Shown piece after piece: positions 22,377 to 25,074 of a DNA stretch of 35,201 nt. Made by a program: the position numbers and the translations under genes. The number at the start of each line of letters is the position of its first letter. The first letter of the stretch is position 1. The notes below the pieces were generated by a model. That model ran no database searches and was not told the origin of the DNA. It saw nothing but the letters and a program-made list of their open reading frames with translations. The stretch covers positions 1 to 35,201 of the forward strand of contig JAPKCM010000044.1 in assembly GCA_028822935.1 (NCBI GenBank), written 5' to 3'. The DNA is from Akkermansiaceae bacterium (GTDB lineage: Bacteria; Verrucomicrobiota; Verrucomicrobiia; Verrucomicrobiales; Akkermansiaceae).

Positions 22377-23975
22377 ATGTCAGACGACGACAAAAAAGGC
22401 CCCAAATCTCCCGATCACGAGGAACTCCGCAAGTCCCTCGAAGGCATCTTTGGCAAGATGAGCAAAACCGGCTTCAGCTTCCCCGGTATGACTCCCGCCG
22501 GCTCTTCTCAGGAAGAGGAAGATCCCTTCGAAGCCGAAGTAGAAGAAAAAGACGATATTTTCGAGTTCAACTACCTCCCCCGCGACATTAAAGCGCACCT
22601 CGATCGCTTCGTCATTAGTCAAGACGATGCTAAGAAGGCCCTCGCGATCGCGGTCTGTGATCACTACAATCACGTGAAGTCGCTCAAAGCGCAGGACGCC
22701 GACGCCCAGCCCCTCGAAATCCAGAAACAAAACGTCATGGTCGTCGGTCCCACCGGAGTGGGCAAAACCTACCTAATCAAGCACATCGCGGAACTCGTTG
22801 GAGTTCCCTTCGTTAAAGCCGATGCCACAAAGTTCTCCGAAACCGGCTACGTCGGCGGCGATGTCGATGACCTCGTCCGTGAGCTCGTATCGAAGGCCGA
22901 TGGCGACGTCTCCCTCGCCGAATATGGCATTATCTACATCGACGAGATCGATAAGCTCGCCAGCACCGGTGGAGGCATGGGTCGCGATGTCAGCGGTCGC
23001 GGCGTGCAAACCACCCTTCTAAAGCTCATGGAGGAAACCGAAGTTGCCCTTCGGAACCCCAATGACATGCGTGGTCAGATGGCGGCCATGATGGAGATGC
23101 AGCAGGGCAAAAAGTCAAAGGAGACGATCAACACCCGCCACATCCTCTTCATCGTCAGCGGTGCCTTTTCCGGATTGGAAAAAATCGTCCGCAAGCGCAG
23201 CGCCGCATCGCAGATCGGCTTCACCGCCGAGAGCAAAGTCCCCGAAATGGACAACGAGCTCTTCAAGCACGTCACCTCCCAAGATTACATCGACTTCGGC
23301 TTCGAAGCCGAATTCATTGGCCGAATCCCGGTGCGCGTCGTTTGCGAACATCTCCAAGCGCCTGATCTCGAAGCCATCCTGAAATACTCCGAGGGCAGCC
23401 TCCTCCGCCAATACGAACGCGAATTCGAAGCCTATGGCATCGACGTTATTTTCAAAGACGAAGGCATCAAGCGCATCTCCGAAATGGCTGCCGAAGAAAA
23501 AACGGGGGCTCGAGGACTCATGACCGTCGGCGAGCAAATCCTCCGCGATTTTAAATACGAACTCCCCGGCACCTCCGTCAACGAACTCATCGTCGACGCC
23601 GATCTCATCGACAACCGCGAAAGCCATCTCGAAAAATTCCGCGAACTTGGCCAGGAACTTGTCGTTGAGAAAGCCCGCCAGGAAGTCGAAGCCTTCGTCC
23701 GTGAATTCAAAGACAAGCACAGCGTCATCGTTACCCTGGAAGACGACGCCGTCGCCCTCATCGTCGAAAAGGCAGGAGCCCAAGCCCGCAGCGTCCTTCA
23801 AGTCGCCCGACAACTTTTCCGCGACTACCAGTTCGGCCTCAAGCTCGTCCAAAAGAACACCGGCCAAAAGGAGTTTCACCTCCCCGCCTCCGCCGTCACC
23901 GATCCCGACACCTTCCTCAGCGAAATGGTCGTCAAGTCCTACAAAGACCAAGCCGGAGACAAAAAATCTGAATAA
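22377..23975 (+). CDS. clpX: ClpX-like AAA+ unfoldase without the zinc-binding domain
   Basis: A 532-residue AAA+ ATPase of the ClpX family; ClpX unfolds proteins for the ClpP protease. Visible motifs: Walker A GPTGVGKT (124-131), GYVGGDVDDLV, Walker B IIYIDEIDK (D189-E190), RDVSGRGVQTTLLKLME, the arginine-finger region EFIGRIPV (R316) and sensor 2 TGARGL (R379). The IGF loop that docks on ClpP is present (280-282). The usual Cys4 zinc domain is missing; the first 90 residues are acidic and low in structure. The RKH pore-loop area differs (MRGQMAAMMEMQQGKKSKET). About 110 extra C-terminal residues follow the usual end of ClpX (424 in E. coli). Confidence 0.85.
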   Translation: MSDDDKKGPKSPDHEELRKSLEGIFGKMSKTGFSFPGMTPAGSSQEEEDPFEAEVEEKDDIFEFNYLPRDIKAHLDRFVISQDDAKKALAIAVCDHYNHVKSLKAQDADAQPLEIQKQNVMVVGPTGVGKTYLIKHIAELVGVPFVKADATKFSETGYVGGDVDDLVRELVSKADGDVSLAEYGIIYIDEIDKLASTGGGMGRDVSGRGVQTTLLKLMEETEVALRNPNDMRGQMAAMMEMQQGKKSKETINTRHILFIVSGAFSGLEKIVRKRSAASQIGFTAESKVPEMDNELFKHVTSQDYIDFGFEAEFIGRIPVRVVCEHLQAPDLEAILKYSEGSLLRQYEREFEAYGIDVIFKDEGIKRISEMAAEEKTGARGLMTVGEQILRDFKYELPGTSVNELIVDADLIDNRESHLEKFRELGQELVVEKARQEVEAFVREFKDKHSVIVTLEDDAVALIVEKAGAQARSVLQVARQLFRDYQFGLKLVQKNTGQKEFHLPASAVTDPDTFLSEMVVKSYKDQAGDKKSE

Positions 23976-24023: not shown

Positions 24024-24166
24024 CTCCCGAATCCCCAGCGAAAATCCATACACAAGCCCCTCAACCAAGATCCCATTCATCTGCGGTTTCATTCACTCCC
24101 GGCCCTCCACCCACCCTTCCTCCTAAAAAGAATTGCAAGGAAGCGCGGAAAAGTCAGGATGCCGCC

Positions 24167-24181
24167 GACAGAAATTCTGTC
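24167..24181. promoter_or_regulatory. Perfect palindrome just upstream of ilvE
   Basis: GACAGAA-A-TTCTGTC is a perfect inverted repeat with 7-bp arms. It ends 8 bp before the ilvE ATG. It covers the place where a ribosome-binding site would be, so it could be an operator or a start-masking hairpin. No regulator is suggested by the neighbours. Confidence 0.35.
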
Positions 24182-24189
24182 ATAAAAGC

Positions 24190-25074
24190 ATGAGTCGGAA
24201 AATTTGGTTGGACGGAAACATCGTCGAAGAGGCGGATGCCAAGATCTCGGTATTCGACCACGGTCTTTTATATGGTGACGGAATCTTCGAAGGCATTCGC
24301 TTTTACGAAAACCGCGTCTTCCGCCTCCGCGAGCACATCGAACGCCTCTTCCTCTCTGCCAAGGCCCTCCTAATCAAAATGCCCTGGTCCATCGACGAGG
24401 TCATGGCCTACAGCCTCGACACCATCCGCGCAAACGGACTCACCGAAGGCTACATCCGTCTCGTCGTCACTCGTGGCGTCGGTGACCTCGGCCTCAACCC
24501 TTACCTTTGCCCCACCCCGTCGATGTTCATCATCGCCTCGGGTATCAAACTCTACCCTGCTGAGTATTACACTAAAGGCCTCGAAGTCGTCACCTGTGGC
24601 ACCCGTCGACCCACCCCTGCGAGCTTGAGCCCGCAAGTCAAGTCGCTCAATTACCTCAACAACATCATGGCCAAAATCGAAGCCCTCAAGGCTGGCGCCA
24701 TGGAAGGTCTCATGCTCAATGAGCAAGGCTACGTTGCCGAGTGCACTGGAGACAACGTCTTCATCGTCAAAAAAGGCCAAGTCATCACTCCTCCCGTCTC
24801 CGATGGCTCGCTCGATGGCATCACCCGCCAAGTCATCTTTGACCTCTGTGAAAAAGCTGGCATCACCATCCGTGAAGCCTCCCTCACGCGCTACGATCTC
24901 TACACCGCGGAAGAATCCTTCCTCACCGGAACCGCCGCCGAAGTCATCCCGATGGTGAAACTCGACGAACGCGAAATCGGCCACTGTGAAACCGAAGGCC
25001 GCCCCGGCCCCATCACCCTCAAGCTCACCAAAGCCTTCCGCGCCCTGGTGAGAAGCGAAGGCGAGCCGATCTAG
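24190..25074 (+). CDS. ilvE: Branched-chain amino acid aminotransferase
   Basis: A PLP-dependent fold-type IV transaminase of 294 residues. It makes valine, leucine and isoleucine from their keto acids with glutamate as amino donor. The PLP lysine is K151 in SPQVKSLNYLNN. Other family motifs are GDGIFEGIRFYENRVFRLRE, GYIRLVVTRGVGDLGL, LNEQGYVAECTGDNVFIVKK and SFLTGTAAEVIPM. The start at 24190 (MSRKIWLDGN) fits the family; the open frame to 24133 runs through the palindrome. D-amino acid transaminase or aminodeoxychorismate lyase are less likely, given the near-canonical BCAT motifs. Confidence 0.93.
   Translation: MSRKIWLDGNIVEEADAKISVFDHGLLYGDGIFEGIRFYENRVFRLREHIERLFLSAKALLIKMPWSIDEVMAYSLDTIRANGLTEGYIRLVVTRGVGDLGLNPYLCPTPSMFIIASGIKLYPAEYYTKGLEVVTCGTRRPTPASLSPQVKSLNYLNNIMAKIEALKAGAMEGLMLNEQGYVAECTGDNVFIVKKGQVITPPVSDGSLDGITRQVIFDLCEKAGITIREASLTRYDLYTAEESFLTGTAAEVIPMVKLDEREIGHCETEGRPGPITLKLTKAFRALVRSEGEPI

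Follow-up and report, generated by a model that had tools for sequence, protein, structure and literature searches.

The Akkermansiaceae bacterium examined here encodes, apart from its ordinary ClpX, a second ClpX-type protein that, from its sequence and predicted structure, is probably an anciently diverged, ATP-driven unfoldase feeding ClpP, in which both sites of substrate recognition have been remodelled and the lid domain is duplicated. ClpX is among the best-studied unfolding motors, and its lid domain belongs to the ring by which ATP use is coupled to pulling. The window, meaning the whole stretch of DNA analysed, is an entire contig of 35,201 nucleotides (JAPKCM010000044.1) from a 4.59-Mb assembly that is 96% complete (GCA_028822935.1). 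We use "paralogue" for the ClpX-type protein of the open reading frame at 22377–23975 and its family members, and "ClpX" or "zinc ClpX" for the canonical form. With ClpX of the E. coli type the paralogue shares the core (residues 65–418, about 40% identity), the GYVG pore loop, sensor 2, the arginine finger, and the IGF loop; it differs in lacking the zinc domain and the RKH loop, in having a second small domain, in forming a separate clade, and in scoring under both NCBIfam cut-offs for ClpX.

Motor core and family assignment

Features of the gene are collected in Table 1. The initial annotation had reported Walker A, Walker B, sensor 2, and the IGF tripeptide, and all were found in the window protein, along with an arginine finger. 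Motif counts refer to 123 members, obtained from 147 family stretches after removal of 24 that were identical, cut, or short. Of these members, 108 were less than 92% identical to one another and 104 entered the second structure prediction, L013, L053, L099, and L102 having been omitted without a set criterion. This AlphaFold model (mean pLDDT 80.8) was used in place of an earlier one built from 18 rows (pLDDT 59.4).

Table 1. Features of the clpX-type paralogue in window coordinates, with residue numbers in parentheses.
Feature	Position	Strand	Basis
clpX-type paralogue, whole gene, 532 aa, ATG start	22377..23975	+	ORF list, profile matches
N-terminal acidic arm replacing zinc domain (1-65)	22377..22571	+	member alignment; mean pLDDT <60 for residues 1-60
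Predicted helix within arm, partly conserved (14-27)	22416..22457	+	AlphaFold model, alignment
Walker A GPTGVGKT (124-131)	22746..22769	+	identical in 121/123 members
Pore-1 loop GYVG (157-160)	22845..22856	+	GYVG in 122/123
Walker B IIYIDE (185-190)	22929..22946	+	member alignment
Predicted helix at ClpX RKH-loop place, Met-rich in many members (228-245)	23058..23111	+	alignment, AlphaFold model
IGF ClpP-docking tripeptide in predicted coil (280-282)	23214..23222	+	alignment, AlphaFold model
Arginine finger (R316)	23322..23324	+	GR in 123/123
First small (lid) domain stretch (318-416)	23328..23624	+	profile comparison, AlphaFold model
Sensor-2 GAR (377-379)	23505..23513	+	GAR in 123/123
Predicted connecting helix (414-448)	23616..23720	+	AlphaFold model
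Second, degenerate small-domain copy (~441-524)	23697..23948	+	profile comparison, AlphaFold model
Conserved C-terminal motif around PDxxLSxxVVxSY (510-522)	23904..23942	+	member alignment

Pfam recognized an AAA_2 domain in the window protein, with the ClpB_D2-small lid just under its cut-off. The top NCBIfam models were two ClpX equivalogs (NF003745 and TIGR00382), and the protein scored below the cut-off of each (341 vs. 359 and 315 vs. 370.75 bits, respectively). Six further members were scored on the same models; L126 passed NF003745 (364.9 bits) and none passed TIGR00382. The solved structures closest in sequence were ClpX from several bacteria, the top match spanning residues 67–417 only, and VIA-align placed model residues 65–418 on a ClpX crystal structure with Z 32.9 and rmsd 2.2 over 308 aligned residues. 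Comparison with the nearest relative found gave pN 0.042 against pS 0.744; the ratio of 0.012 is only rough because dS was saturated.

An HslU identity was considered. The AAA+ core is shared with HslU (Z 27.9 to 1g41), and some of the wording of the sequence around pore 1 and the lid seems HslU-like. The paralogue differs in having a ClpX-type IGF loop and in reaching 200 bits against a cut-off of 362 on the HslU model (TIGR00390), and an HslU identity was ruled out by cut-off and docking loop. HslU was sought in 49 genomes and found in none of them.

Paralogy and phylogeny

The PF06689 zinc domain had a single match in the window assembly, on a separate contig (C130), within a gene for a normal ClpX of 429 aa with the Cys4 domain, RKH, and an LGF loop; this protein scored 641.7 bits on NF003745. 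The initial annotation had suggested looking for a second, zinc-containing clpX, and since one is present the window gene is a paralogue. A ClpX tree, suggested at the same time, placed the paralogues in a clade of their own, apart from ClpX. Trees included 22 of 43 paralogue representatives (<68% identity). In a tree of 63 rows, these 22 together with L166 and L167 formed one clade (100/99), and 31 ClpX rows, the phylum's own included, formed another (82/75). When other long rows were left out, support for the ClpX clade was 99/98 and that for the paralogues again 100/99; the former held ClpX of the phylum, E. coli, Acinetobacter, a Bacillus relative, Ruminococcus, Sphingosinicella, and phage G. 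A clade uniting the paralogues with the phylum's own ClpX was rejected at a borderline level (AU p 0.045), and the root is unsure because HslU is a long branch. Neither tree thus supported the idea that the phylum's own ClpX had duplicated recently to give the paralogue, with the provisos of long branches and the borderline AU value. From its sequence relationships, the paralogue looks like an old subfamily rather than a local duplication, because many families of the phylum carry it and its branch lies outside the sampled ClpX. The earlier description of it as a lineage-specific ClpX paralogue therefore stands as to paralogy and holds only in part as to lineage.

Some divergent sequences were observed beside the two clades or within them. 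Nested among the paralogues is an extra copy, L166 (G180:C42), from which both the IGF loop and the second lid are missing; the same genome encodes a zinc ClpX as well as a paralogue of full length. Further AAA+ proteins that resemble ClpX but have no zinc domain (L168, L169, and L171–L174, from G054, G044, G053, G048, and G043) fell outside both clades, and L168, L169, and L173 have long, differing C-termini.

Distribution and gene neighborhood

The paralogue was found in 46 of 58 genomes, its own included. Among the 46, it was partial, split, or broken in G010, G047, G052, and G014, and in G007 it ended at a contig edge. Within the genus (27 genomes) it was absent from two, which are 61 and 65% complete. 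In a draw across the phylum, where canonical ClpX starts at 315.5 bits, paralogue-strength matches were obtained in 81 of 288 genomes: 77 at ≥500 bits (with G301 cut), and G320, G334, G321, and the split G052 at 379–494 bits. In some genera of the family to which the window genome belongs, only canonical-strength matches were obtained. The paralogue is thus not a form shared by all Verrucomicrobia, the circumstance under which the initial annotation would have taken it simply for the clade's ClpX. In the best 80 of 545 relatives, titles name Verrucomicrobia groups, including Roseibacillus persicicus (L050) and Persicirhabdus sediminis (L052); L035 is titled just a bacterium. A mobile or viral gene was considered and rejected, as no plasmid or phage record matched over 80% of the query and no relative was found in IMG/VR.

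Neighbors were compared at 87 loci. Downstream lay recR in at least 50, lipA in at least 31, and two types of membrane protein in at least 28 and at least 12, with rluD on the other side in at least 24; the counts are lower bounds because several stretches are short. A recurrent order, in which paralogue, membrane protein, recR, and lipA share one strand and rluD points the other way, was observed in about half of L035–L114 and in L181, and one of the membrane-protein types has a weak cyclase-like domain. The window locus is without recR, lipA, those membrane proteins, and rluD; downstream it has instead an ilvE-like aminotransferase gene (24133–25074), the start of which is probably the ATG at 24190, not the listed TTG at 24133. 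The neighborhood of the 87 loci offered no functional clue. A search of the window for the CIRCE heat-shock element returned one match, with a mismatch and far from the gene, where 1.4 are expected by chance. At L179 (G014:C9, also C30), the paralogue occurs in frame-shifted pieces on two contigs, representing either a pseudogene or an assembly error.

Replacement of the recognition elements

In ClpX, the zinc domain is the receiver of adaptors. The ten Pfam families listed for the window protein did not include zf-C4_ClpX, and the first 66 residues contain no Cys in 120 of 123 relatives and a single Cys in the remaining 3. Residues of the arm are predominantly acidic (17 D/E vs. 8 K/R in 60). 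Of the initial proposal that the zinc domain had been exchanged for an acidic, low-complexity arm, the absence of Cys4 and the acidity were borne out, yet the arm holds a predicted and partly conserved helix. The RKH pore-loop region, described at the outset as altered, is so throughout the family: the RKH motif was found in 0 of 123 members, and a helix is predicted in its place, in which D230 and Q234 are nearly invariant and which in 10 of 123 members (residues 228–245) is without any Met. In E. coli, the RKH loops contribute to recognizing substrates and help to set the rate of ATP hydrolysis, according to an excerpt of PMC7112951. Because both known recognition elements, zinc domain and RKH loop, have been replaced, it is plausible from sequence that the substrates of the paralogue differ from those of ClpX.

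A comparable protein is ClpX3 of Myxococcus xanthus (MXAN_2743), which the excerpted text of PMC11423568 describes as a ClpX paralogue without the N-terminal domain and without RKH, present alongside normal ClpX copies; its deletion weakened growth at high temperature. The likeness, drawn from that description, lies in the lack of both zinc domain and RKH motif, so that two of the paralogue's three oddities have precedent in another phylum. The paralogue differs in its C-terminal extension, a feature that the excerpt does not mention for ClpX3.

The docking loop and ClpP

The docking tripeptide takes the form xGF in all 123 members (IGF in 109, MGF in 8, LGF in 3, VGF in 2, and XGF in 1). Over 104 rows, entropy is 0.7 bits at I280 and 0 at both G281 and F282, and the other positions of 275–300 are variable (1.6–3.7 bits). 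The initial annotation regarded partnership with ClpP as unlikely should the IGF residues lie outside a loop; in the model they lie in a predicted coil, residues 279–292 (mean pLDDT 57 for 281–290). The docking region (275–302) is shorter than that of ClpX, with 28 residues in 81 of 123 members (range 26–31) against 28–35 in the 31 ClpX rows. In E. coli, most contacts of ClpX with ClpP come from the IGF loops, and altered loop length reduces ClpP affinity according to work cited there (PMC7112951, in excerpt), so that the shorter region counts against partnership with ClpP.

ClpP was present in all 49 genomes examined, with or without the paralogue, and co-occurrence of the two is therefore uninformative. 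In the window genome a single clear ClpP was identified (255 bits), beside a weak match to the family (70.7 bits). Its own ClpP retains Ser-His-Asp and R192, in E. coli the C-terminal Arg that contacts the IGF loop. The residue equivalent to R192 was observed to vary across sampled Verrucomicrobiota (L224–L243), also where ClpX is normal. A dedicated second ClpP was discounted, given the one clear ClpP of the window genome and the occurrence elsewhere of second ClpPs both with and without the paralogue. That the paralogue would work with ClpP is well supported by the conservation of its loop.

A second small domain

ClpX homology stops near residue 418 of 532, leaving about 115 extra residues at the C-terminus, in keeping with the approximately 110 first estimated. 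Profile–profile comparison of residues 318–416 with 425–524 (104 rows) gave a probability of 98% and E 3e-13, and the corresponding comparison on 18 rows 97% and E 2e-11, each E-value applying to a single comparison. Among controls, 30 column shuffles reached a probability of at most 0.4% (best E 0.07), and neither one reversed profile nor any of four other profile windows exceeded 0.1%. Structure prediction, which the initial annotation had advised for this region, returned a lid-like topology that matches the profile comparison, with block mean pLDDT of 85–94 over residues 431–520. The order strand-helix-helix-strand-helix recurs in both lids: strand 356–359, helices 361–374 and 379–395, strand 403–406, and helix 408–412 in the first; strand 451–454, helix 456–469, a helix in two parts (473–480 and 484–495), strand 499–502, and helix 504–508 in the second. 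By profile and predicted fold, then, the C-terminal extension is a tandem, degenerate duplicate of the AAA+ small (lid) domain.

Similarity of the second lid to canonical ClpX lids is weak (E 6e-4, probability 12%), and its greater nearness to the paralogue's own first lid points to an internal duplication within the paralogue lineage. The sensor-2 motif is not conserved in the second copy across the 123 members, so the copy is probably structural. A sequence search for a solved homologue of the extension gave none that convinced (4 matches up to E 10, best E 0.4). When the whole model was searched, human mitochondrial CLPX (9dvy, 9ykx), which shares the ClpX core fold, aligned just to residues 62–426, with the second lid uncovered. 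Among the matches listed from open-licence PMC literature (no preprints), we found neither a precedent for a doubled lid nor a described family of the paralogue's kind.

Genomes without a zinc ClpX

In the other paralogue-bearing genomes, a ClpX zinc-domain match was found in 74 of 80, in 73 above the curated cut-off. The six without are G092, G113, G110, G210, G274, and G326. A ClpX of canonical type (58–59% identity to that of the window genome) but without a recognized zinc finger is present in G210 and G274, and G110, in 90 contigs, may be incomplete. G092 and G113 each consist of one contig (915,884 and 917,278 bases, respectively), in which the paralogue (L220, L221), with a VGF loop, is the sole ClpX-type gene found; across the 19 kb surrounding clpP and the paralogue, no hit exceeded 25 bits and no ClpX remnant was recognized. 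Each of the two has one ClpP, with Leu at the equivalent of E. coli R192, a ClpC-like protein whose loop reads LGF, and a ClpB-like protein for which no such loop was found, the ClpC and ClpB names being a reading from size and loop. ClpC alone could explain the retention of ClpP in these genomes.

Proposed mechanism and alternatives

By homology, six subunits would assemble into an ATP-hydrolysing ring, through the GYVG pore loops of which substrate would be drawn. To judge from their conservation, the IGF loops on one face of the ring would dock the cell's ClpP, and proteins would then be unfolded for degradation. Substrate choice would be unlike that of ClpX, through the acidic arm with its short helix and through a pore-mouth helix standing where ClpX has basic RKH loops; the replacement is observed and its effect presumed. 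The weakest step concerns the second lid, which may sit on the protease-facing rim and stiffen the ring or add a contact, by analogy with HslU, the C-termini of which reach its protease.

The main competitor, which we consider unlikely, is a ClpP-independent remodelling chaperone that unfolds or disassembles specific proteins by means of the second lid and the changed loops, its IGF loop being a relic. The window gene does not adjoin clpP, the ClpP of G092 and G113 has Leu for R192, and the derived copy L166 lacks the docking loop, all of which suit such a chaperone; however, the 123 members retain the loop Gly and Phe without exception amid freely variable flanks, which is not expected of a relic. 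Mixed hexamers with canonical ClpX, tuning ClpXP, would fit the many genomes (74 of 80) that hold both proteins, but two single-contig genomes have the paralogue without canonical ClpX, and identity between the window protein and its own genome's ClpX is only about 37%, so we consider this improbable. Hardly any probability attaches to the paralogue being the clade's ordinary ClpX, diverged in sequence: although NCBIfam ClpX models are its best match, that reading is refuted by the separate zinc ClpX of the same genome, which clears by a wide margin the cut-off that the paralogue fails.

Our preferred reading thus remains an old ClpX-type unfoldase delivering proteins to ClpP. A fuller version of it, which we offer tentatively as a possibility, is a separate ClpXP-like protease of Verrucomicrobiota, in which a doubled-lid ring on ClpP would read its own degrons through the pore-mouth helix, and which an obligate endosymbiont could not lose even where ClpX had become dispensable. 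As a conserved natural variant in which a second lid has been added and both substrate-reading elements replaced, the paralogue would allow a direct test of the roles of those parts. The small genomes that carry it without ClpX turn into a testable question whether a ClpP-bearing cell can run without ordinary ClpX.
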